This document shows, piece by piece, positions 6,643 through 25,293 of a stretch of 64,000 nucleotides of DNA (position 1 is its first letter; the number at the start of each line of letters is the position of its first letter). The position numbers and the translations under genes are program-made. The stretch is taken from assembly GCA_016213325.1 (NCBI GenBank), contig JACRAY010000018.1, positions 1-64,000 of the forward strand. The letters run 5' to 3'. The notes under the pieces are model-generated. The model did no database searches and was not told where the DNA came from. It saw only the letters and a list, made by a program, of their open reading frames with translations. The stretch comes from Burkholderiales bacterium (GTDB lineage: Bacteria; Pseudomonadota; Gammaproteobacteria; Burkholderiales; Burkholderiaceae_C).

Positions 6643-7866
6643 GTGCCGATGATGCATCTTCCCCCCTCGACCGACACACGCATCGCCATGGCCAAGGACT
6701 CCCCCGCCAGCCCCTCCAACGGCACCGCCGCGCGCCGCAACACCAAGCCCAGCGCACCACAGCCCCGCCGCCGCGCCACCCCGCGCCGCGTACGCCAGGG
6801 CGACGTACCCACCGCGCTCGACGCGCACACCCTCGAAACCGACCGCGTATCCCGCGCCAGCACCCGCCGCACCACCGTGCAGGCGATGGCCGTTTCCGAC
6901 CTGCTGAACGCGCCGCCCGCCAACGACACCATCGCCCGGCTGCAGGCGCTGGTTGGCGGTGCATCGCCCGACGAACGCAGGGCGCTCCGGCGCGCGCTGG
7001 CCGCTGCGCGGCCCGCGCGCAGGGGCGGCAGCGACCCCGACCTGGAACTGGTGCCCAACTGGCGCGAAGGCGTCTACCCGTACGTCAACCTGATGTCGCG
7101 CAAGACCTACGAGCACCAGAAGTACCGCCTGCAGGTGGAGCTGCTCAAGTTGCAGGCCTGGGTCAAGGAGGCGGGGCAGCGCGTGGTGATCCTGTTCGAG
7201 GGCCGTGACGCGGCCGGCAAGGGTGGTGCCATCAAGCGCTTCATGGAGCACCTCAACCCGCGCGGTGCGCGCGTGGTGGCGCTCGAAAAGCCCAGCGACG
7301 TCGAGCGCGGCCAGTGGTACTTCCAGCGCTACATCGAGCACCTGCCCACCGCCGGCGAGATCGTGCTGTTCGACCGCAGCTGGTACAACCGCGCCGGCGT
7401 GGAACGCGTGATGGGTTTCTGCACCCAGGCCGAGTACGACGAGTTCATGCGCCAGGCACCCGAGTTCGAGCGCCACCTGGTGCGCAGCGGCGTGCACCTG
7501 TTCAAGTTCTGGTTCAGCGTGAGCCGCGCCGAGCAGCGCCGCCGCTTCAAGGAGCGTAAGGCGCACCCGCTCAAGCAGTGGAAGCTGTCGCCGGTGGACC
7601 TGGCCTCGCTGGACAAGTGGAACGACTACACGCGGGCCAAGGAGGCCATGTTCCTCAGTTGCGACACCTCCGACGCCCCCTGGACCGTGATCAAGTCGGA
7701 CTGCAAGAAGCGCGCGCGGCTGAACGCCATGCGCTACGTGCTGCACCGCCTGCCGTACTCGAACAAGGACGCCAAGGCCATCGGCAGCGTCGACACGCTG
7801 CTGGTGGGCCGCGCTTCGCTGGTGGCGGGGCGCGCGGAAGAGTTCATCCCTACGCAGGCGGGCTGA
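6643..7866 (+). CDS. ppk2: Polyphosphate kinase 2 family protein
   Basis: PPK2 enzymes transfer phosphate between polyphosphate and nucleoside mono- or diphosphates, so this gene links phosphate storage to nucleotide pools. The conserved domain begins near residue 130 (NWREGVYPYVNLMSRKTYE). It has Walker A GRDAAGKGGAI, Walker B EIVLFDRSWYNRAG, and the lid segment RRFKERKAHPLKQWKLSPVD. The N-terminal ~120 residues are Pro/Arg/Ala-rich and look disordered. In-frame ATG codons at 6643, 6649, 6652 and 6688 (MAKDSPAS) are all possible; the last may be the true start. Sequence alone does not fix whether ADP, GDP or AMP is the preferred acceptor. Confidence 0.93.
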   Translation: MPMMHLPPSTDTRIAMAKDSPASPSNGTAARRNTKPSAPQPRRRATPRRVRQGDVPTALDAHTLETDRVSRASTRRTTVQAMAVSDLLNAPPANDTIARLQALVGGASPDERRALRRALAAARPARRGGSDPDLELVPNWREGVYPYVNLMSRKTYEHQKYRLQVELLKLQAWVKEAGQRVVILFEGRDAAGKGGAIKRFMEHLNPRGARVVALEKPSDVERGQWYFQRYIEHLPTAGEIVLFDRSWYNRAGVERVMGFCTQAEYDEFMRQAPEFERHLVRSGVHLFKFWFSVSRAEQRRRFKERKAHPLKQWKLSPVDLASLDKWNDYTRAKEAMFLSCDTSDAPWTVIKSDCKKRARLNAMRYVLHRLPYSNKDAKAIGSVDTLLVGRASLVAGRAEEFIPTQAG

Positions 7867-7880
7867 CGCCGCTTGCTCCC

Positions 7881-7898
7881 ATCCCTCATTCGAGGGAT
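7881..7898. promoter_or_regulatory. 18-bp dyad upstream of small membrane protein
   Basis: ATCCCTC-ATTC-GAGGGAT is a perfect inverted repeat. It is centred 42.5 bases before the A of the ATG at 7932. The -10 hexamer TATGCT (7920-7925) lies seven bases before that ATG. The position is typical of an activator site overlapping -35, but the cognate factor is unknown. Confidence 0.45.
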
Positions 7899-7931
7899 AG
7901 TCATTTCGCGCCCCTTTCCTATGCTGGGGGC

Positions 7932-8207
7932 ATGCGTGCAAGCCGCCTGCTTGTCCTGTCCACCGCCCTGGTCGCGGGGTTCTCGTCGCCGCACCTGGCC
8001 GACCAGCTGGCGGGCCACGGGTGGGCGGCCGAGTTGTGGTTCTATGCCGTCGTGCCGGCCGTGCTCGATGTCGTGCCGCAAGGCATGGCGTGGCTGGCTG
8101 CAGGCGTGGTCTACACGCTGCAGTACCTGGCCGCGCTGTCCGTCATCGGCGCCGCCTGGTCGGCTTGGGTGCCGCAGCAGATGGATGCCGGGTCAAGCCC
8201 GGCATGA
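7932..8207 (+). CDS. Small membrane protein, hypothetical, 91 aa
   Basis: The product starts MRASRLLVLSTALVAG and has two or three hydrophobic stretches (residues ~5-17, ~33-60 and ~62-80), so it is probably an inner-membrane protein. It has no recognised domain. A TATGCT -10 element seven bases before the ATG and the lack of a Shine-Dalgarno suggest a leaderless transcript. Its last residues (MDAGSSPA) are encoded inside a dispersed palindromic repeat. It overlaps the 3' end of the convergent ATP-grasp gene by 65 bases, so the original C-terminus may have been altered. Confidence 0.5.
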   Translation: MRASRLLVLSTALVAGFSSPHLADQLAGHGWAAELWFYAVVPAVLDVVPQGMAWLAAGVVYTLQYLAALSVIGAAWSAWVPQQMDAGSSPA

Positions 8208-9855
8208 CAAAGTCCGACGACACAATGATGGCGTCGACGGCACCATCGAGCAGCAACGCGCGGACCCGTTGAGCCGTTCCAGCCGCTGTCATCGGCACAA
8301 GCTCGCCAGCCGGGTCACGCACGCCAACCGGCTCCACGCGCCAGCACCGCAGTCCTTCCTTGCACAGCGCCTTCCAGCGCCGCGTTGCCCTGGCTTCATC
8401 GGCAATCACTTCCACCGGGATGCGGCCCAGGCCCTCACCCAGCAGGCGCGACAGGAACTCGGGCAGGTAGCCGCGCGAAATGTCCCCACCGCCCAGCAGC
8501 GGCGCGGCATTCACTTCGTTGATGACAGCCCCCGATGCATGCCACGGCTGCGACAGGTCTTCGCCGATCATGTCGACGCCCGCCACCTCCAGGCCCATCA
8601 GGGCCGTGGCCCGCACGGCCGCCTGCACGTTGTCCGGGTGCAGGGTGGCCGTCACGTCTTCGTCGGTGCCGCCCCACTGCGTGGACTCGATGCGCCGCAA
8701 GGGCACGAAGGTGCCGGCCGGCGGCACCGAAGCCGGCGTCCATCCCATGCGTTGCAGCGACGCCAGCGCCAGGTCATCCAGGGTTACTGCCCCCACGCGC
8801 TGCCATGAAGGCTTGCGCTGGTCGGCGGCGCAGGCCGCAGCCGCCAGCTGGCCGATGCTGTGCTCGCCGTCGGCGTAAACGCCGGCGGGCAGGCGCTTCA
8901 CCGCGTACAGCAACTTGCCGTGCCAAACGAAGAGGCGGTGGCACCAGCCGGGCACCTGCCGCTCCACGAGCACGGCGCTGTCCGGCGCAACCTGCTTCGC
9001 GTGGCGGAAGGCCGCGTCCAGTGAAGCCGTGTCGGCCACGTCCATGCTCACGCCGGCGCCGCGGTCCTGGTTGGACGGCTTCACGACCACGGGCGTGCCC
9101 AACTCGCGGGCGACGGCGGCCGCTTGCTCGGTACTGCGAGCCAGTGCGTGGAGCGGCACGGGAAGCCCCGCGGCTGCCAGCAGGCGCGCCGTCGCCACCT
9201 TGTCCTGCGCCAGCCGCACGCCGATGGCGGAGTCGCGGTCGGTCATGCTGCGGTCGATGCGCCGCGCGCGGCTGCCCCATCCGAGCTGGAACACGCCGCT
9301 GCCCAGGTGCAGCGCCGGGATACCCAGGGCGTGCGCGGCGCGCAGCACCGGCAGCGTCGACTTGCCGGTGACGACGAAGGTGCCGAGCCGGGGCAGCACT
9401 TCCTTGTCCAGCATGTCGTGAAGGGCAGCCACCGCCGGCTCGTCCGGCGCGCGGGCACCCATCCAGTCGCACAGGCCCAGCGCCGACTGCAGGGCCAGCT
9501 GCACGCACTGCGGCGCCACGTATTCGATGGCTGGCATGCGTACCCGCGCGTGCCATTCGCCCGAAGGCTCGGAGCGCAGCGCCTCGATGCCGGGTACATC
9601 GAACACCGGCAGCCGCGTAGCCTGCAGCAGCGTGCGGGCGAGCAGCAGCGCACGCCATAGCCACGCCGCCACGCCCTCGGGCGCTTCGAGGTCCGGCGCG
9701 ATGTCCGGGTCTTCCCACTGCACGCCCAGCACGTCGCGCAGCCAGCGGTCCAGGGTGGTGAAGTCGGCCCGCGCGGGAAGCCCGAAGGCCAGCTCGAAGG
9801 GCTGGGCCGGCTGCAGGCGCGGGATTTTTTGGGGGGTACGGGCGGTGGCGGGCAT
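8143..9855 (-). CDS. Cyanophycin-synthetase-type ATP-grasp ligase 1, C-terminus altered by repeat
   Basis: The 570-residue protein aligns in outline with the ATP-grasp half of cyanophycin synthetase. An N-terminal region ends in GVFQLGWGSRARRIDRSMTD, followed by DKVATARLLAAAGLPVP, the nucleotide-binding strand PVVVKPSNQDRGAGVS, the RLFVWHGKLLYAVKR core, and the metal-binding end INEVNAAPLLGG. It lacks the Mur-ligase domain (about 400 residues) that completes cyanophycin synthetase. Such enzymes make amide bonds from a carboxylate, ATP and an amine; substrates here are unknown. Compared with its paralogue at 10733-12589, the tail stops early at DAIIVSSD and continues into repeat-encoded sequence. 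It is divergent from the methyltransferase, with 54 bases between starts. Confidence 0.85.
   Translation of the reverse strand: MPATARTPQKIPRLQPAQPFELAFGLPARADFTTLDRWLRDVLGVQWEDPDIAPDLEAPEGVAAWLWRALLLARTLLQATRLPVFDVPGIEALRSEPSGEWHARVRMPAIEYVAPQCVQLALQSALGLCDWMGARAPDEPAVAALHDMLDKEVLPRLGTFVVTGKSTLPVLRAAHALGIPALHLGSGVFQLGWGSRARRIDRSMTDRDSAIGVRLAQDKVATARLLAAAGLPVPLHALARSTEQAAAVARELGTPVVVKPSNQDRGAGVSMDVADTASLDAAFRHAKQVAPDSAVLVERQVPGWCHRLFVWHGKLLYAVKRLPAGVYADGEHSIGQLAAAACAADQRKPSWQRVGAVTLDDLALASLQRMGWTPASVPPAGTFVPLRRIESTQWGGTDEDVTATLHPDNVQAAVRATALMGLEVAGVDMIGEDLSQPWHASGAVINEVNAAPLLGGGDISRGYLPEFLSRLLGEGLGRIPVEVIADEARATRRWKALCKEGLRCWRVEPVGVRDPAGELVPMTAAGTAQRVRALLLDGAVDAIIVSSDFVMPGLTRHPSAAAPKPTRRRR
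8182..8214. repeat. Dispersed REP-like palindrome read into two genes
   Basis: The core is ATGCCGGG (8185-8192) / CCCGGCAT (8198-8205) with a 5-base loop. On the minus strand it encodes the peptide MPGLTRHP, which I recognise as the usual translation of a very common proteobacterial dispersed repeat. It forms the 3' end of both the plus-strand small gene and the minus-strand ATP-grasp gene. Confidence 0.75.
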
Positions 9856-9896
9856 GAAGGTGCCGATGTTAAGGCTGGGCTGCCGGGGCGGCCAGT

Positions 9897-9902
9897 TAGA
9901 CT
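9897..9902 (+). promoter_or_regulatory. -10 element, leaderless methyltransferase promoter
   Basis: TAGACT ends eight bases before the ATG at 9910, and no Shine-Dalgarno lies between. This predicts a leaderless or near-leaderless message within the 54-bp divergent spacer shared with ATP-grasp 1. Confidence 0.45.
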
Positions 9903-9909
9903 CGGCGCC

Positions 9910-10674
9910 ATGTCGCCAGCCATCGCGTCTTCACCCGGCTATGTGGAGCTGTTCACGCTGCGCGGCGGCCCTTATGACGCCGCCATGCGCACGTGGCCGC
10001 TCGCGCGCGAGCCGGAGTTTGCGCAGGCGATAGCGCGGGCCGCGCTGGCACCGGGCATGGTCGTCGCCGACGTGCCTGCCGGCGGCGGCTACCTGCAGTC
10101 CTTCCTGCCCCCGGGCGTGCGCTGGATCGGATTCGAGCCCTCGCGCGGCTTCACCAGCACGGCAGGCGGCCACGGCATTCCCGAAGGCAGCCCGCTGGTG
10201 CCGCTGCCCTGGCAGGCGGGCGAAGCCGACGCCGCCATCAGCCTGGCCGGCATCCACCACCTGGCCGACAAGGCGCCGCTGTTCCAGGACCTGCTGCGCG
10301 TGGTCAAGCCCGGCGGCCGCCTCGTGGTGTCCGACGTCGCCGAGGGTTCGGCCGTCGCCGGCTTCCTCGACGGCTATGTCGGCAGCCACAACAGCACCGG
10401 GCACGAGGGCGACTACCTGTCGGCGGACACCGTGGCCACGCTGCGCCATGCGGGCTGGCACATCGCCTCGTCCGAGCTCGTGCCGTTCCACTGGGTGTTC
10501 GCCAGCCGCGACGATATGGCCGCCTTCTGCCACCGCCTGTTCGACCTGCGCACGTCGACGCTGGCCGACACACGGCGCGCCATCGAGTCCGGGCTGGGCG
10601 TCGACGAGTTGCCTGGCGGCCGCATCGGCATGCGCTGGGAGCTGATGACCATCGCCTGCGAGCGGCCTGCATGA
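9910..10674 (+). CDS. Class I SAM-dependent methyltransferase
   Basis: The 254-residue protein carries motif I as VVADVPAGGGYLQSF, the acidic segment GFEPSRGF, a SLAGIHH motif and LLRVVKPGGRLVVSDV, typical of UbiE/Coq5-like or Methyltransf_11 enzymes. It lies between two ATP-grasp ligase genes, and its stop overlaps the start of a 21-codon frame that itself overlaps the second ligase. I infer that it methylates a precursor or product of the ligases. The target atom (N, O or C) cannot be told. ATG 9910 is chosen because upstream in-frame codons run through the promoter and the conserved sequence begins here. Confidence 0.85.
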   Translation: MSPAIASSPGYVELFTLRGGPYDAAMRTWPLAREPEFAQAIARAALAPGMVVADVPAGGGYLQSFLPPGVRWIGFEPSRGFTSTAGGHGIPEGSPLVPLPWQAGEADAAISLAGIHHLADKAPLFQDLLRVVKPGGRLVVSDVAEGSAVAGFLDGYVGSHNSTGHEGDYLSADTVATLRHAGWHIASSELVPFHWVFASRDDMAAFCHRLFDLRTSTLADTRRAIESGLGVDELPGGRIGMRWELMTIACERPA

Positions 10675-10736
10675 GCCGCACGGCCGCCCGAAGGCTCATG
10701 GCCCCGCAGCGCGCAGCGCGGAGGGCAGCCCAATGA
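10671..10736 (+). CDS. 21-codon Arg/Ala-rich coupled mini-ORF, uncertain
   Basis: MSRTAARRLMAPQRAARRAAQ starts inside the methyltransferase stop (ATGA) and ends inside the ATP-grasp 2 start (ATGA), so it would couple translation across the 58-base gap. The DNA contains the GGAGGG ribosome site of the downstream gene and resembles a linker that I recall from other Comamonadaceae. It may therefore be a spacer, not a functional peptide. Six Arg in 21 residues is notable beside enzymes related to an Asp-Arg polymer synthetase. Confidence 0.25.
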   Translation: MSRTAARRLMAPQRAARRAAQ

Positions 10737-12589
10737 CCGTGCCTGCGTTCGTCTTCAAGGGGGACATCACGTCGCCCCCGGGTTTCCTGCAAGGCATGCG
10801 CCACCCGGCGGTCATCGTGCCCATGGCCGTCAACCTGGCCGACGACCTGCCGGACCGCCTGGCCGAATGCGAGCAGCAGTTCGCCTCTCGCGTGCCCGCG
10901 CTCGAAATGCCCGCGCAGCGGCGCCACCGGTCGGAAGAGTCCGCCCAGGCGGCCCAGCGCATGCTGCACTGGGTGGCCCGGCTGCAGGCCGAAGCCGGCT
11001 GGGCGCTGGCCGACTCGCCGCACGCGCGCGTCTCTGACGCCCAGCCCGGCGTGCTGATGGTCATGGTGCCTTGCCTGCCGCTGGCCCAGCCCATCACCGC
11101 CAAGGCGCTGCGCTGGGTGGCCGGCATTTTCAATGCCGTCGCCGCGGGGCAGGCGCCCGACTGGGCACTGCTGGACCGGCTGAGGGTACACCTGGCCTCG
11201 CATGCCGGCGCCACGTCGAACATGCCGCGCTTCCTGCGGGCGGCCAACCGCATGTCGCTGCCGTGGGACCGGCTGACCTCGATGACCTATTCGTTCGGGC
11301 AGGGTGCGCGCACCCGCTGGCTCGACAGCTCGTTCACCGATGCCACTCCGCACCTGTCGACGCGCTTCGCGCGCGACAAGGTCGAATGTGCCCACCTGAT
11401 GCGCCGGGCGGGGCTACCCGCGCCGGTCCACCGGCTCGTGCCCGACGCCGAAGCCGCGGTGCGCACGGCAGCCACCTTCGGCTATCCCGTTGTCGTCAAG
11501 CCCGCCGACCTCGACGGCGGCGTGGCCGTCGCGGCCGACCTGCGCACCGAAGACGAAGTGCGCAGTGCCTATGCGGTGGCGCGCGACAAGTCCAAGCAGG
11601 TGCTGGTCGAAAGGCACTTCGAAGGCCGCGACTACCGCCTGACGGTGTTCCAGGGCAAGCTGCTGTGGGCCATCGAACGCCAGCCGGGCTCGGTAACGGG
11701 CGACGGCGTCAACACGGTCGAAGCGCTGGTGGCCATCGTCAACCAGGACCCCCGGCGCGGCGACGGCAAGCAGTCGGCGCTGAAGGCGCTGGCACTGGAC
11801 GCCGAAGCCGACGCCATGCTGGAGCAGCACGGCCTCACGCGCCACAGCGTGCCCGAGGCAGGCCGCTTCGTGAAGCTGCGGCGGGCGTCCAACGTGGCGC
11901 TGGGCGGCATGCCGGTCGCCGTGATGGACCAGGTACACCCCGACAACGCGGCGCTCGCGGAGCGCGCCGCCAACCTGCTGCGGCTGGACCTGGCCGGCGT
12001 GGACCTGCTCATCCCCGACATCGGCCGCTCGTGGCTGGAGAGCGGGGCGCTGATCTGCGAAGTGAACGCGCAACCCAGCCTGGGACAGGCGACGGCCGCG
12101 CACCTCTACGCGCCCTTGCTGCGCCGCCTGGTGCAAGGCGACGGCCGCATCCCGATAGCGGTGGTGGTCGGCGCGAGCGGCCCCGAGGCGCTGGGCCGGG
12201 CCGTGGTGGCGCGGCTGGCGCGCGAAGGCTGCGTGGCGGGCTGGGCCGGCCCGGCTGGCGCGGCCATCGGCGAAGGCCGCATCGTGCCATACGCACTGGG
12301 CTCGTTCGAAGCGGGGCAGGTGCTGCTGACGGATCGGCGCACCGAGGCGGCCATCGTCTTTGCGCAGGCGGGCGACATGTTCGCCAAGGGCCTCGCGTTC
12401 GACCGCTTCGACGCGCTGCTGGCGGCGGGCGCACCCGGCTCGTCGAGAAAGATCAACATGCTGGCCGCCTCGTGCGTGGGCGCCGTGGCCGAAGCGGACC
12501 AGGTGGCACCCGAGGCCATGGAAGACTGGCTGGTGCAGCAGCTGCTCGCCGCGCGCGACCGCCACGCGGCCGCGCCGGAACCCGGTTAG
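10733..12589 (+). CDS. Cyanophycin-synthetase-type ATP-grasp ligase 2
   Basis: The 618-residue protein is a paralogue of the ligase at 8143-9855. The N-terminal half (~1-205) ends in MTYSFGQGARTRWLDSSFTD. The ATP-grasp core follows: DKVECAHLMRRAGLPAPV, PVVVKPADLDGGVAVAA, RDYRLTVFQGKLLWAIER, HPDNAALAERAANLLRLD and ICEVNAQPSLG. A ~120-residue C-terminal domain (from RIPIAVVVGASG) has an alternating beta/alpha pattern, is absent from typical ATP-grasp enzymes and may be a remnant of the link to a Mur-type domain. No Mur ligase is present. It should form an amide or peptide bond using ATP; the substrate is unknown. Its stop overlaps the convergent stomatin stop. Confidence 0.87.
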   Translation: MTVPAFVFKGDITSPPGFLQGMRHPAVIVPMAVNLADDLPDRLAECEQQFASRVPALEMPAQRRHRSEESAQAAQRMLHWVARLQAEAGWALADSPHARVSDAQPGVLMVMVPCLPLAQPITAKALRWVAGIFNAVAAGQAPDWALLDRLRVHLASHAGATSNMPRFLRAANRMSLPWDRLTSMTYSFGQGARTRWLDSSFTDATPHLSTRFARDKVECAHLMRRAGLPAPVHRLVPDAEAAVRTAATFGYPVVVKPADLDGGVAVAADLRTEDEVRSAYAVARDKSKQVLVERHFEGRDYRLTVFQGKLLWAIERQPGSVTGDGVNTVEALVAIVNQDPRRGDGKQSALKALALDAEADAMLEQHGLTRHSVPEAGRFVKLRRASNVALGGMPVAVMDQVHPDNAALAERAANLLRLDLAGVDLLIPDIGRSWLESGALICEVNAQPSLGQATAAHLYAPLLRRLVQGDGRIPIAVVVGASGPEALGRAVVARLAREGCVAGWAGPAGAAIGEGRIVPYALGSFEAGQVLLTDRRTEAAIVFAQAGDMFAKGLAFDRFDALLAAGAPGSSRKINMLAASCVGAVAEADQVAPEAMEDWLVQQLLAARDRHAAAPEPG

Positions 12590-13518
12590 CGGATCTCGGG
12601 CGCCGGCGGTGTTCGCGTGCCTTGCACCATCTTCATGGCCGAAGCGATCAGCGCCGACACCTCGGTCATGTTGCTCGGCACGATCAGGGTGGTGGTCGCG
12701 TCCGAGGCGACCTTGCTGTAGGCGTCCACGGCACGCTCGGCCACCTTCAGTTGCACGGCCTGTTCGCCGCCCGGCTGTCGGATCGCCTCGGCGATCTTGC
12801 GTATCGCCTCGGCTGTCGCTTCGGCCACCGCCAGGATGGCGGCGGCTTCGCCCTGTGCGTTGTTGATCTCGGCCTGCTTCTCGCCTTCGGAGCGCGCGAT
12901 GAAGGCCTCGCGCTCGCCGGTGGCGATGTTGATCTGCTCCTGCCGGCGGCCTTCGGAGGCGGCGATCAGCGCGCGCTTCTCGCGCTCGGCGGTGATCTGC
13001 GCCTGCATGGCGTGCAGGATCTCCTTGGGCGGCGTCAGGTCCTTGATCTCGTAGCGCAGCACCTTCACGCCCCAGTTCAGCGCGGCCTCGTCGATGGCCT
13101 GCACCACCTGCGCGTTGATGATGTCGCGTTCCTCGAAGGTCTTGTCCAGCTCCAGCTTGCCGATCACGCTGCGCAGCGACGTCTGGGCGAGCTGCGTGAC
13201 GGCGACGATGTAGTTGGACGACCCGTAGCTCGCGCGCATCGGGTCGGTCACCTGGAAGTACAGGATGCCGTCCACCTGCAGCTGCGTGTTGTCGCGCGTG
13301 ATGCAGACCTGGCTGGGCACGTCCAGCGGGATCTCCTTCAGGCTGTGCTTGTAGGCGACCTTGTCGACGAAGGGCACCAGGAAGCTCAGGCCGGGTTGCA
13401 GCGCCGTGTGGTACTTGCCCAGGCGCTCGACCACCCACGCGTTCTGCTGCGGCACGATGCGGATCGCGCGGAAGCCGAAGATGATGGCGACGATCAGCAG
13501 GATGATGAAGATGTCCAT
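12586..13518 (-). CDS. SPFH/stomatin-like (slipin) membrane protein
   Basis: The 310-residue protein has one N-terminal hydrophobic segment (MDIFIILLIVAIIFGFRAI) followed by a Band 7/SPFH domain with the stomatin signature (RVVPQ-type RIVPQQNAWVVERLGKY, ITRDNTQLQVDGILYFQV). A long Glu/Ala-rich coiled coil (~200-260) drives oligomerisation in this family. Such proteins scaffold membrane microdomains and often act with the NfeD protein encoded next to them. It lies 24 bases downstream of nfeD on the same strand, which is the usual operon. Its stop overlaps the stop of the convergent ATP-grasp gene by three bases. Confidence 0.92.
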   Translation of the reverse strand: MDIFIILLIVAIIFGFRAIRIVPQQNAWVVERLGKYHTALQPGLSFLVPFVDKVAYKHSLKEIPLDVPSQVCITRDNTQLQVDGILYFQVTDPMRASYGSSNYIVAVTQLAQTSLRSVIGKLELDKTFEERDIINAQVVQAIDEAALNWGVKVLRYEIKDLTPPKEILHAMQAQITAEREKRALIAASEGRRQEQINIATGEREAFIARSEGEKQAEINNAQGEAAAILAVAEATAEAIRKIAEAIRQPGGEQAVQLKVAERAVDAYSKVASDATTTLIVPSNMTEVSALIASAMKMVQGTRTPPAPEIR

Positions 13519-18888: not shown

Positions 18889-19671
18889 CTACTCCTCGAC
18901 GGCGATGGCGGTGTGGCTGAAGCCGCCGTCGACGTAGGTGATCTCGGCCGTCATGCCCGAGGCCAGGTCGCTCATCAGGAAGGCGGCCACGTTGCCGACG
19001 TCGGCAATGGTCACGTTGCGGCGCAGCGGCGCGGCCGCGGCGACGATCGAGAGCAACTTGCCGAAGTCCTTGATGCCGCTGGCGGCGAGCGTCTTGATCG
19101 GCCCCGCACTGATGCCGTTGACGCGGATGCCCCGGGGCCCGAGTGAGCCGGCCAGGTAGCGCACCGACGCTTCCAGCGAAGCCTTGGCCAGGCCCATGGT
19201 GTTGTAGTGCGGCACGATGCGCATGGCGCCCAGGTAGCTGAGCGTGAGCAGCGCCGACTTCTCGTTCAGGTAGGGCAGGGAGGCCTTGGCCATCGCGGGG
19301 AAGCTGTAGGCGCTGATGTCCTGGGCGATGCGGAAACTTTCGCGCGAGAGCCCGTCGAGGAAGTCGCCGGCGATGGCTTCACGCGGGGCGAACCCTATGC
19401 TGTGGACGAAGCCGTCGAACTTGCCCCAGTGGGCCCCGAGGTCGGCGAACAGCTTGTCGATCTGCGCATCGTCGCCCACGTCGCAGTCGAAGACCAGCGT
19501 CGAGTCGAACTCCGAGGCGAATTCGGTGATGCGCTCCTTGAATCTTTCGCCCACGTAGCTGAAGGCCAGCTCGGCGCCCTGGTCCCGGCACGCCCGGGCG
19601 ATGCCGTAGGCGATGGAGCGGTTGGACAGCACCCCCGTGATCAACAATTTCTTGCCGGTAAGGAAACCCAT
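18889..19671 (-). CDS. fabI: Enoyl-ACP reductase (NADH)
   Basis: FabI reduces trans-2-enoyl-ACP in the last step of each fatty-acid elongation cycle. The 260-residue protein has the FabI-type start [24 protein letters not shown], the active-site Tyr and Lys in the [24 protein letters not shown] region (Tyr-x6-Lys), and [10 protein letters not shown] as in the substrate-loop region. The start MGFLTGKK at 19671 is chosen over an upstream in-frame ATG because this is where family members begin. It diverges from the yejA-like gene with 37 bases between starts. Housekeeping gene and likely triclosan target by family. Confidence 0.96.
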
Positions 19672-19696
19672 AGCATTGGCCCGATTAAAAAGTCGG

Positions 19697-19702
19697 CAGA
19701 AT
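19697..19702 (+). promoter_or_regulatory. -10 element, leaderless yejA promoter
   Basis: CAGAAT lies exactly seven bases before the ATG at 19709, with no ribosome site between. The predicted transcript starts at the A of the start codon. Confidence 0.4.
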
Positions 19703-19708
19703 TGTCGC

Positions 19709-21541
19709 ATGCGAGCAGTACTGATCCTTGGCGCCGCGTGCGTCGGCGCCTCCTGCTGGGCTGCGCCCGGCTATGCGGTGTGGGGCGAGTTCAAATACAA
19801 GCCGGGCTTCACCCACTTCGAATACGTCAACCCGAACGCGCCCAAGGGCGGCGAACTGCGCATGGTGGCAGGCTCGCGGATATCCACTTTCGACAAGTAC
19901 AACCCGTTCACGCTGCGCGGCAATGCGCCGTCGTTCCTGGGCAACCTGCTGTTCGACAGCCTGCTGATGGGCACGATGGACGAGAACGGCGTGGGCTACG
20001 GCCTGCTGGCCGAAGACGTCGATGTGCCGCCCGACCTGACGTCTGCCACGTTCCGCCTGCGGCCCGAAGCCCGCTTCCACAACGGCGACCCGGTGAAGGC
20101 CAGCGACGTCAAGTACAGCTTCGACTCGCTGAACTCGAAGTTCGCCCACCCGTCCTACGCTTCGCTCTATGCCGACGTTGCCGGCGCGGAAGTCGTGGAC
20201 GAGCGCACCATCCGCTTCAAGTTCAAGAAGAAAGACCGGCAGTTGCCCCTGGTGGTGGGCGGCATCCCGGTGTTCTCGCCCAAGTGGGGCATGGCCAACG
20301 GCAAGGCCAGGCAGTTCGACGAGATCGTCTCCGACGTGCCCATCGGCAGCGGACCCTACAAGATCGGGCCGGTGGAGTTCGGCCGCGACATCACCTACGC
20401 GCGCGACCCCAGCTACTGGGCGCGCAACCTGCCGGTGACGCGCGGCATGTTCAACTTCGACCGCATCACGGTGAAGATCTACCGCGACAACACGGCCCAG
20501 CTCGAAGCGCTGAAGGCCGGCGAGTTCGACCTGATGCAGTTCTTCTCGGCCGGCGACTGGACCCGCCGCCTCACGGGCAAGCGCATCGCCCGCGGCGAAC
20601 TGAAGAAAGAGGTGTTCCAGCACAAGCTGCCCGACGGCTTCTACAGCATGGTGCTGAACAACCGGCTGCCCAAGTTCTCGGACCGCCGCGTGCGCCAGGC
20701 CATCGTGCTGGCGATGGACTACGAGTGGATGAACGTGCACCTGTTCCGCGGCAGCTACACGCGGGTGAAGGGCGTGTTCGGCAACACCGACTGCGAAGCC
20801 AACGGCGTGACGCCGCCCGAAGAAGCGGCGCTGCTCGAGCCGTTCCGCGCCAGCCTGCCGCCCGAGGTGTTCGGGCCGATGGCGGTGCCGCCGCGCACCG
20901 ACGGCGCCAACTCGCTCAACGACAACCTGCTGAAAGCCCGCAAGCTGCTGGCCGAGGCCGGCTGGACCTTCCGCGACGGCGCCTTGCGCAACGCCAAGGG
21001 CGAGGCTTTCACGATGGAGTTCCTCGACAGCTCCGAGGCCCGCGGCGTGACCACCACCGCCGCGTGGAAACGGGCGCTCGCCAAGCTGGGCATCGAGTTC
21101 TCGGTGCGCGAGGTCGACTTCGCGCTGTGGCAGCAACGGCTGGAGTCGAACAACTTCGAGGTGCTGGGCATCTCCTTCCCGGGCACGCACTTCCCCGGCG
21201 CCGACTATGCCGACCTGTTCGGCAGCAAGGCCGCCGACAACCCCGGGTCGGGCAACTACGCGGGCGTCAAGAACCCCGCCATCGATGCGCTGGTGGCCAG
21301 GCTGACCGTGGCGGACAACCAGAAGGAGTACCTCGCCGCCTGCCGCGCGCTGGACCGCGTGATCGCGCACGGCTACTACATGGTGCCGGCGTGGACCGCA
21401 CGCGGGCGCCGCATCGCGTACAGTGACTGGGCGCTCGAGAAGCCCGGGGTCGTGCCGGCCTACCCGCCCGAGGGCGTGCCCTACATGACGTGGTTCATGT
21501 ACACGTGGTGGGCCCGCAATCCCCCCAAGACTGCGAAGTAG
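19709..21541 (+). CDS. Extracellular peptide-binding protein, YejA-like
   Basis: The 610-residue family 5 solute-binding protein has a signal peptide ([23 protein letters not shown]). Typical YejA features follow: [30 protein letters not shown], the SGPYKIG motif, and YAWR-type late segments ([13 protein letters not shown]). It is the periplasmic component of a peptide ABC importer; homologues take up oligopeptides including microcin C. Membrane and ATPase subunits follow in order, making a complete yejABEF operon. ATG 19709 is favoured by the signal peptide and the -10 element directly upstream. Confidence 0.92.
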
Positions 21542-21552
21542 AAGAACAACCC

Positions 21553-22572
21553 ATGGCTGCCTACATCCTCAAGCGCATCCTGCTGATGATCCCCACGCTG
21601 CTCGGCGTGCTGCTCATCACCTTCGTCGTCATCCAGTTCGTGCCGGGCGGGCCGGTGGAGCAGTACATCGCCGAGTCGCGCCGCACGCAGGGCGCGGGCG
21701 ACACGTCGGCCTATCGCGGCGGGCAGGGCGTGCACCCGAAACGCATCGAGGAGATCAAGAAGCTCTACGGCTTCGACAAGCCGGCCCACGAGCGCTTCTT
21801 CCAGATGCTCGGCCAGTACGCGCGCTTCGACCTGGGCAAGAGCTTCTTCCAGAACAAGCCCGTGAGCCAGCTGATCGTGGAGAAGCTGCCGGTTTCGATC
21901 AGCCTGGGCCTGTGGACCTTCTTCATCAGCTACCTGATAGCAGTGCCGCTCGGCGTGGCGAAGGCGGTGCGCGCCGGCACGCGCTTCGACATCGTGACCA
22001 CCGTGGCCGTGCTGGTCGGCTACGCCATCCCGGGCTTCGTGCTCGGCCTCTTGCTGCTGGTGCTGTTCGGCGGCGGGCTCGAGCTGTTCCCGCTGCGCGG
22101 CCTCACCTCGCCGGGCTGGGAGCAGATGGGCTGGGGCGCGCGCATCGCCGACTACCTGTGGCACATCACGCTGCCGGTCACCGCAATGGTGCTGGGCAGC
22201 TTCGCCGTGACCACGATGCTCACCAAGAACTCGTTCCTGGAGGAGATCCGCAAGCAATACGTGCTGACCGCCCGCGCCAAGGGCCTGGCCGACCGGCGTG
22301 TGCTGTGGAAGCACGTGTTCCGCAACGCGCTGATCCCTATCCTCACCGGCTTTCCGGCGGCCTTCATCGGCGCCTTCTTCACCGGGGCGCTGCTGATCGA
22401 GACGCTGTTCTCGCTGGACGGCCTGGGCCTGCTCAGCTACGAAAGCATCATCCGGCGGGACTACCCCGTGGTCCTGGGCTCGCTCTACGTTTTCACGCTG
22501 ATCGGCCTGTTCACCAAACTCATCACCGATTTGAGCTATGTCTGGGTCGACCCCCGTGTCAAATTTGACTAG
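21553..22572 (+). CDS. yejB: Peptide ABC transporter permease YejB
   Basis: The 339-residue integral membrane protein begins MAAYILKRILLMIPTLLGVLLITF, the usual first helix of DppB/YejB permeases. It has about six membrane spans and the EAA loop (RAKGLADRRVLWKHVFRNALIPI) that docks on the ATPase. The segment with RRTQGAGD and YRGGQGVHPKRIEEIKKLYGFDKP is characteristic of YejB. It follows yejA by 11 bases. Its 3' end overlaps the start region of yejE by 35 bases. Confidence 0.94.
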   Translation: MAAYILKRILLMIPTLLGVLLITFVVIQFVPGGPVEQYIAESRRTQGAGDTSAYRGGQGVHPKRIEEIKKLYGFDKPAHERFFQMLGQYARFDLGKSFFQNKPVSQLIVEKLPVSISLGLWTFFISYLIAVPLGVAKAVRAGTRFDIVTTVAVLVGYAIPGFVLGLLLLVLFGGGLELFPLRGLTSPGWEQMGWGARIADYLWHITLPVTAMVLGSFAVTTMLTKNSFLEEIRKQYVLTARAKGLADRRVLWKHVFRNALIPILTGFPAAFIGAFFTGALLIETLFSLDGLGLLSYESIIRRDYPVVLGSLYVFTLIGLFTKLITDLSYVWVDPRVKFD

Positions 22573-23689
22573 CCCCCCCGAAGCGGCCTACGGCCGCCTC
22601 CCCCCCAGGGGGGCGCCACCAGCGGCCGGGCAAAGCCCGATCCGCGGTGGCCCGCGTGAAGAGGCTTCGCAAAGTCCCGCGGCACGGGCCTGGCGGCGCT
22701 TTCGCCGTAACCGGCTGGGCTTCACCAGCCTCGCCATCTTCCTGGTGCTGGTGACTGCCAGCCTGTTCGCGGAGCTGCTGTCCAACGACAAGCCCTTCGT
22801 CGTGCGCTACAACGGCGAGTTCTACTTCCCGATGGTCAATACCTACCCGGAGAAGACCTTCGGCGGCGACTTCGAGTCGCCCACCGACTACAACGACCCG
22901 CGCATCCGCAAGAACCTGTCCTCGGGCAGCAACTGGGCACTGTTCCCGGTCAACCGCTACGGCTCGGGCACCATCGCGTACCACAACCCCTTGCCCTTCC
23001 CCAGCCCGCCTTCGGCCGACAACTGGCTGGGCACCGACGAACGCGGGCGCGACCTGCTGGCGCAACTGCTCTACGGCTTTCGCCTGAGCGTGCTGTTCGG
23101 GCTGGCGCTGATGGCGATTGGCGTGCTCCTCGGCGTCGTCACCGGCGCCATCCAGGGCTACTTCGTGGGCAAGACCGACCTGGCTTTCCAGCGCTTCATC
23201 GAAATCTGGGAGTCCATGCCCGAGCTGTACCTGCTGATCATCTTCAGCGCCATCTTCGCGCCCAGCGTGGCACTGCTGCTTCTGCTGCTGAGCCTGTTCG
23301 GATGGACCGGGCTGTCGGGCTACGTGCGTGCGGAGTTCCTGCGGAACCGGCAGATGGAATACGTGAAGTCGGCCCGGGCCCTGGGCGTGGGCAACGGCCG
23401 CATCATGTGGCGGCACATCATGCCCAACAGCATGACGCCGGTGGTGACCTTCCTGCCGTTTCGCATGAGCGCCGCCATCCTGGCGCTGACCTCGCTGGAC
23501 TTCCTCGGGCTGGGCGTGCCGCCGGGTACGCCGTCGCTGGGCGAGCTGCTGGCTCAGGGCAAGACCAACCTGGACGCATGGTGGATTTCGGTGTTCACCT
23601 TCATCGTGCTGGTGCTCACGCTGCTCCTGCTGACCTTCATGGGTGACGCGCTGCGCGACGCCCTCGACCCGCGAAAGGCCGACCAATGA
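22538..23689 (+). CDS. yejE: Peptide ABC transporter permease YejE with repeat-encoded N-terminus
   Basis: The 383-residue permease has conserved sequence from RAWRRFRRNRLGFTSLAIF (~residue 49) onward, the YejE-type periplasmic insert (NTYPEKTFGGDFESPTDY), WLGTDERGRDLLAQLLYGFR, and an EAA loop (KSARALGVGNGRIMWRHIMPN). The first ~48 residues include about 33 encoded by a GC-rich dispersed repeat. No in-frame ATG, GTG or TTG exists between that repeat and the conserved core. Initiation must therefore be at ATG 22538, GTG 22556 or TTG 22565, with the repeat translated. Its stop overlaps yejF (ATGA). Confidence 0.92.
   Translation: MSGSTPVSNLTSPPEAAYGRLPPRGAPPAAGQSPIRGGPREEASQSPAARAWRRFRRNRLGFTSLAIFLVLVTASLFAELLSNDKPFVVRYNGEFYFPMVNTYPEKTFGGDFESPTDYNDPRIRKNLSSGSNWALFPVNRYGSGTIAYHNPLPFPSPPSADNWLGTDERGRDLLAQLLYGFRLSVLFGLALMAIGVLLGVVTGAIQGYFVGKTDLAFQRFIEIWESMPELYLLIIFSAIFAPSVALLLLLLSLFGWTGLSGYVRAEFLRNRQMEYVKSARALGVGNGRIMWRHIMPNSMTPVVTFLPFRMSAAILALTSLDFLGLGVPPGTPSLGELLAQGKTNLDAWWISVFTFIVLVLTLLLLTFMGDALRDALDPRKADQ
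22573..22672. repeat. Multi-hairpin GC-rich dispersed repeat inside yejE
   Basis: Nested short hairpins are visible: GCGGCC-TAC-GGCCGC, CCCCCC-A-GGGGGG, GGGC-AAA-GCCC flanked by CCACC/GGTGG, and GAAGAG-GCTTC. I recall highly similar intergenic elements in Variovorax and Ramlibacter. Here it begins right after the yejB stop codon and is in frame with yejE. Confidence 0.65.
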
Positions 23690-25293
23690 CGGCGCAATTG
23701 CTGGAAGTGAAAGACCTGCGCGTCGCCTTCGGCGGCAAGGAGGTCGTGCACGGCGTGCAGTTCCACATCGCGCCGGGCGAGAAGCTGGCGCTGGTGGGCG
23801 AGTCAGGTTCGGGCAAGACCGTCACCGCGCTCGCCATGCTGGGGCTGGTCCCCAATGCAACAGTCACGGGCTCGGCGGTCTTCGCCGGCCTCGAAGGGCA
23901 GCCGCCGCGCGACCTGATCTCGATGCCCGAACGCGACCTGCTGTCCGTGCGCGGGCGTGAGATCGCGATGATCTTCCAGGAGCCGATGACGGCCCTGAAC
24001 CCACTGTTCCCGGTGGGTGACCAGATCGCCGAGGTGCTGCAGCTGAAAGAGGGCCTGAGCAAGCGCGAGGCCTGGGACGGCGCCGTCAAGGCGCTGCACG
24101 CGACCGGCATCCCCGACCCCGAGCGCCGTGCCATGTCGTTTCCGCACCAGCTGTCGGGCGGGCAACGCCAGCGCGCCATGATCGCCATGGCGCTCGCCGG
24201 GCGCCCGCGCCTGCTACTGGCCGACGAGCCCACCACCGCGCTGGACGTGACGCTGCGCGTGCAGATCCTCGACCTGCTGGGCGAGATCCAGGCGCACAAC
24301 GGCATGGCGATGCTGCTGATCACGCACGACCTGAACCTGGTGCGCAAGTTCGCCGACCGGGTGGCCGTCATGGAAAACGGCTACCTGGTGGAGACGGGGG
24401 CGGTGGATGAGATCTTCTCCAACCCGCAGCATGCCTACACCCGCAAGCTGATCGACAGCCGGCCCGAGCGCGACGTCGACGAGACCCCGGCGGGCGGCGG
24501 CGCGCCGGTGATGGAGGCCAAGGACATGCGGGTGACCTACCCGGTCCACCTGCCCGGCATCAAGGGCTGGTTCCGCAAGGGCCAGTTCATTGCCGTGAAG
24601 AACGCAGCCTTCCGCATCGAGCCCGGCCGCACGCTGGGCGTGGTGGGGGAGTCGGGCTCGGGCAAGTCCACGCTGGCCATGGCGGCGCTGGGCCTGATCC
24701 CGCACCAGGGCGAGCTCGACGTGGTGCAGCGCCGCTGGGGCCCCGACGCCGCCGGCAACAAGGCGATCCGCCGCATGGTGCAGGTGGTCTTCCAGGACCC
24801 GTTCTCGTCGCTGTCGCCCCGCATGACGGTGGAAGAGATCGTGGGCGAGGGCCTGCTGGTGCACCATCCCGAATACGACGTGCCGCAGCGCCGCGCCCGA
24901 GTGGTGCAGGCCTTGTCGGACGTCGGCCTGACCGAAGCGCAGTTTCCCGGCCTCCTGAACCGTTACCCGCATGAATTTTCAGGCGGCCAGCGCCAGCGCC
25001 TGGCGATTGCCCGGGCGCTGATCGTGGAGCCGTCGGTGCTGATCCTGGACGAGCCGACCAGCGCGCTGGACGTCACGATCCAGAAGCAGGTGCTGAAGCT
25101 GCTGCAGGGCCTGCAGCGCGACAAAGGGCTGAGCTACCTGCTGATCACCCACGACGTGGACGTGATCTGGGCGATGGCCCACGACGTGCTGGTCATGAAG
25201 GACGGCGAAGTGGTGGAGGCGGGGACCGTCGAAGAGGTCCTGAAGGCGCCCCGCAACCCCTATACCCAGACCCTCGTGGCCGCCGCCGCTTGA
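23686..25293 (+). CDS. yejF: Peptide ABC transporter double ATPase YejF
   Basis: The 535-residue protein fuses two ABC ATPase domains. The first has Walker A GESGSGKT and signature LSGGQRQRAMIA. The second has Walker A GESGSGKST and signature FSGGQRQRLAIARAL, with Walker B LILDEPTSALD. The oligopeptide C-terminal motif (NPYTQTL) is present. It powers the YejBE permease pair. It overlaps the yejE stop by four bases and ends the operon; the next promoter is 26 bases downstream. Confidence 0.95.
   Translation: MTAQLLEVKDLRVAFGGKEVVHGVQFHIAPGEKLALVGESGSGKTVTALAMLGLVPNATVTGSAVFAGLEGQPPRDLISMPERDLLSVRGREIAMIFQEPMTALNPLFPVGDQIAEVLQLKEGLSKREAWDGAVKALHATGIPDPERRAMSFPHQLSGGQRQRAMIAMALAGRPRLLLADEPTTALDVTLRVQILDLLGEIQAHNGMAMLLITHDLNLVRKFADRVAVMENGYLVETGAVDEIFSNPQHAYTRKLIDSRPERDVDETPAGGGAPVMEAKDMRVTYPVHLPGIKGWFRKGQFIAVKNAAFRIEPGRTLGVVGESGSGKSTLAMAALGLIPHQGELDVVQRRWGPDAAGNKAIRRMVQVVFQDPFSSLSPRMTVEEIVGEGLLVHHPEYDVPQRRARVVQALSDVGLTEAQFPGLLNRYPHEFSGGQRQRLAIARALIVEPSVLILDEPTSALDVTIQKQVLKLLQGLQRDKGLSYLLITHDVDVIWAMAHDVLVMKDGEVVEAGTVEEVLKAPRNPYTQTLVAAAA

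Follow-up and report, generated by a model that had tools for sequence, protein, structure and literature searches.

What do ligases of the cyanophycin synthetase (CphA) type do in a genome that has no recognizable CphA? The question is raised by a 64 kb stretch of DNA (the window) on contig C14 (JACRAY010000018.1) of a Burkholderiales bacterium (genome G000; 5.4 Mb, 99.95% complete), where two such ligase genes lie on either side of a gene for an S-adenosylmethionine (SAM)-dependent methyltransferase (MT). LigA (8143–9855, minus strand) encodes 570 amino acids (aa), the MT (9910–10674, plus strand) 254 aa, and LigB (10733–12589, plus strand) 618 aa. The original prediction, made from the letters of this stretch, described two paralogous CphA-type ligases flanking a methyltransferase, and this description held. 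The open reading frames (ORFs) are present, the ligases share 36% identity over 441 aa (single pairwise comparison, E 1e-54), and the MT matches the profile Methyltransf_11 at 30.7 bits (cut-off 21.2). With slightly less than even confidence, we read the locus as amide or peptide assembly independent of nonribosomal peptide synthetases (NRPS) and distinct from cyanophycin, in which both ligases derive from CphA, LigA has an ancestry linked to acyl-adenylating (ANL) enzymes, and LigA, MT, and LigB would serve one pathway.

Both ligases belong to the CphA family and have a reduced architecture. Their best NCBIfam models were those of cyanophycin synthetase at scores far under the cut-offs (TIGR02068: 225.6 and 277.9 bits for the two ligases vs. 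850), and the closest solved structures by sequence were CphA1 and, at lower rank, CphA2. Each protein comprises an N domain, an ATP-grasp G domain (LigA ~residues 161–475, 8431–9375, minus strand; LigB ~residues 158–470, 11204–12142, plus strand), and a vestigial Mur (M) domain without a P-loop (LigA ~residues 476–552, 8200–8430, minus strand; LigB ~residues 471–566, 12143–12430, plus strand), which is the layout of CphA2. The Mur half had been described as missing. Its P-loop is indeed found in none of the 42 short ligases compared (24/25 local CphA, 0/6 local CphA′), but a stub of some 100 residues is retained, homologous to the beginning of the Mur domain (hhalign probability 98.2, E 4.2e-14). 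The N-domain motif Cx19HxxEH, present in 6/6 local CphA′, occurs in 0/42 short ligases and also in 0/25 local CphA; it thus does not separate the short ligases from CphA. Judged from their sequences, LigA and LigB look like stand-alone amide or peptide ligases that arose from CphA when the Mur catalytic half was lost. Iyer and others (2009) is reportedly an older survey of amidoligases. We found no description of such stand-alone ligases in the open-access literature as covered by titles and the beginnings of abstracts, a scope that leaves aside bioRxiv and most subscription journals.

The residues of the TeCphA1 active site, with numbering and roles as given in PMC9427784, were mapped on 47 ligase rows, 25 local CphA, and six local CphA′. 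Removal of duplicates had reduced 82 rows to 78; locus L031 is among the 47 rows and outside the 42 short ligases, and the loci of genomes G590, G715, and G647 are absent from this table and from the tree below. K220, K261, E300, R309, D431, and E450 were found in 47/47 ligase rows and N452 in 46/47, whereas position 323 is R in 44 of the 47 and K in three. The LigA G domain keeps equivalents of all of these residues, R323 included. The substrate contacts differ. According to PMC9427784, N394, S396, and R458 form the aspartate pocket of CphA1, in which R458 holds the substrate aspartate, and E215 of TeCphA1 contacts the arginine of cyanophycin. The three pocket positions read N, S, and R in 25/25 local CphA. 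At positions 215, 394, 396, and 458, LigA has R, S, Q, and G, and LigB has R, N, A, and G. With the caution that the alignment has a gap nearby, R458 is R in 0/42 short ligases, 4/4 three-domain ones (L092, L102, L107, and L147), and 25/25 local CphA. N is kept at 394 in 27/42 short ligases and S at 396 in 16/42, while S at 394 marks 14 rows, which are precisely those that the tree puts in the LigA clade. At position 215, 25/42 short ligases, both window ligases among them, have R or K, a possible charge reversal that would suit an acidic donor better than an arginine-bearing one. Our reading of these patterns is that the short ligases would have kept ATP use and acyl-phosphate formation while their substrate recognition changed. 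H267 of the CphA1 P-loop was dropped as a diagnostic residue, being Q in 25/25 local CphA.

The rest of the genome agrees with the earlier view that cyanophycin itself is unlikely. No match over the TIGR02068 cut-off was found in it, and the same search showed one strong place that matches the Mur half only. For the S51 cyanophycinase (PF03575) there was no match in the genome at E 0.001, with the control positive in 10/14 well-known genomes and other cyanophycinase types not searched. R458 is lost in both window ligases. A full-length CphA elsewhere with LigA and LigB as decayed copies, the outcome named as contradicting the original prediction, was likewise not what we found, as no CphA exceeds the cut-off and the two ligases keep the catalytic residues.

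The idea of a twin pair fared less well, because the two are two of 12 ligase places in the genome. A LigB search at 1e-20 gave these 12 matches, itself included; 11 lie in proteins of 570–965 aa and one in a protein of 337 aa. At the same threshold LigB matched 38/60 genomes of the family (one per genus), and in this sample only G000 has more than three matches, those of the others being mostly frames of CphA size that lie close together. LigA at 1e-95 or better was found in 6/60 genus genomes (G000, G062, G070, G078, G094, and G103). In wider samples of 399 genomes each, at least nine family genomes matched LigA at 1e-65 and at least five order genomes matched LigB at 1e-68, G000 included in both; three candidates were scored per genome, so these counts are lower bounds. 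One LigA relative, at 40% identity, comes from a metagenome-assembled genome labelled Rhodoferax.

The relatives of LigA point to its probable ancestral partner. A tree of the G domain, built from 77 of the 78 rows (the first L030 ligase was excluded as too short there), placed LigA and 13 relatives in one clade (support 100/100). With a G590 locus assigned by BLAST, these make 15 LigA-type loci. An ANL domain is fused to the ligase in 7/15 (L140, L141, and L161–L165), and an ANL gene lies directly upstream on the same strand in two (L108 and L148); ANL-like genes were also seen about 2 kb (L166) and 6 kb (L142) from the ligase. Pfam confirmed the assignment in L108, L148, L161, and L142, and the other assignments were made by tblastn. 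The nearest PDB sequences to the L161 ANL domain are o-succinylbenzoate and other acyl-CoA ligases. Another three of the 15 loci (L103, L142, and L167) have an adjoining gene of the α-ketoglutarate-HExxH peptide β-hydroxylase type (TIGR04267), two of which were scanned (106 and 101 bits, cut-off 40), the third being a homologue at 41–43%. Neither the window LigA nor the G590 LigA-type ligase has an ANL or hydroxylase partner within the stretches examined. The fusions of L161–L164, from four genomes of one genus, sit between diaminopimelate decarboxylase-like and pilin-like genes (names by eye).

Synteny with genome G070 connects the window to this ANL-linked group. The order at L108 is a small ORF, LigA, ANL, SPFH, NfeD, and an Orn/Lys/Arg decarboxylase. 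The SPFH and decarboxylase genes of the two genomes are 90–91% identical, NfeD 60%, and the small ORF 42% over 71 aa. LigA has the same place and orientation in both, and MT-LigB, on the other strand, replaces the ANL gene in the window. The small ORF of the window (91 aa, 7932–8207, plus strand, membrane-like by eye, convergent with LigA) is a synteny marker, since its counterpart also adjoins LigA in G070, and is not thought to be part of the pathway. The second marker is the SPFH/band-7 gene (12586–13518, minus strand), which is convergent with LigB, their 3′ ends overlapping.

A methyltransferase beside a short ligase is a recurring theme, because a second MT family is found near such ligases at all four of its genus places and in G590. 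Both MT families were searched genome-wide in the genus and ANL in the own genome, whereas the other neighbour counts come from loci chosen for holding a ligase. The second family has four places in 3/59 genus genomes (G000 twice, G070, and G103), each no more than 3.1 kb from a short ligase on the same strand. It overlaps the ligase in L029; in G590 it shares a 16-nt overlap with a LigB-type ligase. This G590 ligase is 45.8% identical to LigB and has its best matches among the LigB-clade members of G078. G590 belongs to another family and carries, within 11 kb, LigA-type, LigB-type, and third ligases, a GT1, a PDE-like gene, and the second-family MT. In L028, L104, and L144, the genes run in one direction as a porin (Pfam in L028), ligase, weakly TctC-like gene (by BLAST, with no Pfam match in L028), TctA, and second-family MT. 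ORFs in fetched loci were called by a script from length and third-position GC (GC3), which misses or mis-starts genes: the L144 methyltransferase was masked by a spurious ORF and recovered by tblastn, and L196 (no ORF called) and L194 (no ligase called, although the contig has one) are outside the counts.

The window MT is linked to LigB through the arrangement of their genes. ATGA coupling to a downstream gene had been predicted; ATGA overlaps do exist, but the connection of MT and LigB is indirect. Between them lies a 21-codon ORF (10671–10736, plus strand) whose ATG overlaps the MT stop and whose TGA overlaps the ATG of LigB, with GGAGGG just upstream of LigB, so that ATGA occurs twice and the small ORF is a possible translational relay. 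LigA is transcribed separately, on the opposite strand. The predicted 54-bp divergent promoter exists as a gap of 54 nt between the LigA and MT starts (9856–9909), but no match to a sigma-70-like promoter consensus was found in 7800–12800, gap included (shuffles mean 0.2), and the term therefore describes position only.

From these findings we infer ligase activity, altered substrates, and a common pathway for LigA, MT, and LigB. Each ligase would most likely use ATP to turn a carboxylate into an acyl phosphate and hand it to an amine, since the catalytic residues of this route are conserved; the changed contacts suggest substrates other than aspartate and cyanophycin. LigA would form an amide from the ATP-activated carboxylate, probably giving a product of the acyl-amino-acid type. 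Because the LigA subfamily is mostly ANL-linked, its ancestral product would probably be a small amide of the N-acyl or acyl-peptidyl kind, formed without NRPS. At the window locus, where ANL is absent and MT-LigB has its place, LigB would form a second amide, and the MT may methylate the product or a precursor.

Known systems offer partial parallels. CphA1 shares homologous N and G domains and the ATP-grasp catalytic residues, and its structural Z (30.1 and 30.4) equals or exceeds that of CphA2; the short ligases differ in lacking the Mur ligase half and R458 and in scoring far below the TIGR02068 cut-off. N-acetylglutaminylglutamine synthetase (TIGR03103; 140 and 132.7 bits for the window ligases vs. 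a cut-off of 569) likewise joins a CphA-type ATP-grasp to an acyl-transfer partner domain and, by its family name, yields an N-acyl dipeptide, but its partner is GNAT, not ANL, and the window ligases have no Pfam match to GNAT. The dapdiamide enzymes DdaG and DdaF build a pseudo-peptide with an amide-forming synthetase that is separate from the ATP-grasp ligase. For E-64, PMC12568646 describes a pseudo-peptide made without NRPS by an ATP-grasp enzyme, an amide bond synthetase, and an α-ketoglutarate oxygenase. The likeness to both systems is one of pathway description, and the abstract and outline of the E-64 paper contain no fusion resembling ANL-LigA. In PMC11427300, a methyltransferase masks a carboxyl as a methyl ester en route to the β-lactone peptide cystargolide. 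The E-64 and cystargolide parallels are analogies and not tests.

Several observations weigh against NRPS-independent amide assembly by the three genes. E215 is absent from local CphA too (S 20, A 4, G 1), so position 215 does not define the CphA family; the E found at 214 in 25/25 local CphA, and in no short ligase, may do the work of TeCphA1 E215. The Mur P-loop, R458, and R323 are also missing from the six local CphA′, which accompany CphA; the losses of R458 and the P-loop alone therefore do not exclude a role in cyanophycin. A search of the own genome for the ANL partner gave 22 matches but no close orthologue: the top one by E-value has 29% identity, and the highest identity is 36% over ~200 aa. 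The conserved association of the three genes that the original prediction had set as a test was not found: the exact LigA-MT-LigB trio is not conserved and so far occurs only in the window. No orthologue of the window MT was found in 59 genus genomes, own included (four weak matches in the other 58, 36–61 bits, best 2.9e-16 at 30%), and no further case of it within 4 kb of a ligase was seen among the loci examined. Between it and the second MT family there was no BLAST match, and hhalign aligned 41 columns only, a homology too weak to be retained. TctA and the weakly TctC-like gene intervene between the second MT and the ligase in three of the four genus places. The last ~18 residues of LigA (553–570) have pLDDT below 50 in the predicted structure, are unlike the tails of its relatives, and are partly encoded by a palindromic sequence (8183–8208, minus strand, a single copy in the window), possibly a sign of early decay. 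Finally, other members of the ligase group have glycosyltransferase-like neighbours. The suggested peptide or amide pathway is thus supported in part, by amide-ligase residues that look intact and by the peptide-chemistry partners of relatives, but not by the trio as a conserved unit.

These last neighbours make decoration of surface glycans or glycoproteins a serious and the main rival, although we consider it unlikely. Here the ligase would couple an amino sugar or amino acid, through an amide, to the carboxyl of a uronic acid or peptide, beside its own glycosyltransferase. Glycan-type neighbours, each backed by Pfam in at least one homologue, are fused to ligases or lie within 4 kb of them: GT2_4 (fused, L024), TupA-like ATP-grasp (L026, L101, and L106), GT41 (L092 and L143), and GT1 and/or PDE-like genes (L027, L098, L100, L109, L142, L193, and L195), the PDE-like match being under its Pfam cut-off (21.7 vs. 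23). The glycosyltransferases of L099, L105, and L146 were named by eye only, and their family has no Pfam match. LigB itself is closest in the tree to the G103 ligase L143 (100/96), which has a GT41-like gene on one side and a protein of 1704 aa on the other, and the remaining clades mostly track neighbourhood, with a Tct-type clade (L028, L104, and L144), a TupA-like clade (L026, L101, and L106, joined by L146 though no TupA lies within 4 kb of it), and a PDE/GT1 or pil/ispB clade (L027, L098, L105, L109, and L145; pil and ispB named by eye). On the other side, the glycosyltransferase-type seeds had no match near the window trio, and the neighbour at 12/15 LigA-type loci is an ANL or peptide-hydroxylase-like gene instead of a glycosyltransferase.

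A chance arrangement, in which MT-LigB landed beside an old, perhaps decaying LigA whose ANL partner had been lost, appears still less probable. It would account for the ANL gene that G070 has where the window has MT-LigB, for an MT that is an orphan in the genus sample, for the low-confidence, partly palindrome-coded tail, and for the separate transcription of LigA. However, the LigA frame is open with a GC3 of 0.86 and all catalytic residues, and G590 holds LigA-type and LigB-type ligases within 11 kb of each other.

Repolymerization of β-aspartyl dipeptides into cyanophycin or a close analogue, as by CphA2, seems improbable. CphA2 (PDB 7ta5, 8fxh, and 8fxi) has the same layout and length and matches the window ligases over nearly the full length of the structure, and CphA′, the usual companion of CphA, is likewise without R458 and the Mur P-loop. 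Nevertheless, 7ta5 keeps N394 and S396 (with D at 215 by eye), whereas LigB keeps the N only and LigA neither, and both are basic at 215 and without R458. The short ligases also differ in having many paralogues, in partners of relatives that are ANL, MT, peptide-hydroxylase-like, and glycosyltransferase-like genes, and in a genome with no match to the S51 type of cyanophycinase as dipeptide source (the type searched). Their host is not a cyanobacterium, and CphA2s are described, in PMC9262961, as specialized cyanobacterial enzymes. Cyanophycin synthesis proper, or decay of a CphA, is disfavoured by the residues, the missing S51 match, and the lack of any CphA over the cut-off.

Beyond the window, a wider version of amide assembly by CphA descendants is conceivable, although we would sooner doubt it than accept it. 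CphA could have been split and multiplied into a modular system in which some dozen N+G ligases of a single genome differ in substrate and recruit varied partners (ANL, MT, peptide hydroxylase, glycosyltransferases, and carboxylate transporters) and an N+M enzyme adds side chains, giving branched peptides; backbone and side-chain ligation could then reside in separate, mixable proteins. The reciprocal N+M enzyme is present in the own genome (G000:C7:157071–158741; L032:5069–6742, minus strand). It has 557 aa, an intact P-loop, and no G domain; its residues 2–124 match the N domain and 161–537 the Mur domain of three-domain relatives of 875–878 aa in G078, G070, and G103. Among 59 genus genomes, matches at 51–55% occur only in these three, and 11 more genomes have matches at 30–35%.

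Individual loci add to the picture of variety. L024 (4988–7885, plus strand) encodes a 965-aa fusion protein of the own genome, made up of a CphA-type ligase and a glycosyltransferase family 2 domain (GT2_4). L030 (4488–9858, plus strand) is a tandem of three ligases, the first without the residue-394 loop and with D replacing N452. L031 (4530–6244, minus strand) holds a short pair of 234 and 337 aa with a 4-nt overlap, the larger with ATP-grasp matches, adjoined by an aminotransferase-like ORF (by eye). L094 (5871–15785) carries a tandem of three ligases next to a DUF4214 protein of 1411 aa; genes that look by eye like those of ABC transporters are close by. The window contains genes of a peptide-type ABC importer (SBP_bac_5, BPD_transp_1, and ABC_tran; 19613–25293, plus strand) 7 kb from LigB. 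A mobile origin of the locus was rejected, as a plasmid DNA search returned two short matches only, each covering 2% of the query. At the protein level, tblastn with LigA matched nine plasmid records at 34.7–39.7% identity, all annotated as cyanophycin synthetase, and LigB matched none, although it outscores LigA against CphA.

If the short ligases do assemble amides without NRPS, a storage-polymer enzyme would have radiated into a family of small-molecule ligases. As the neighbourhoods of related ligases differ by clade, they predict chemistry that can be checked module by module. The ANL-ligase fusions would then make acyl amides with one protein and serve as useful biocatalysts, and an annotation as cyanophycin synthetase in such genomes need not imply cyanophycin.

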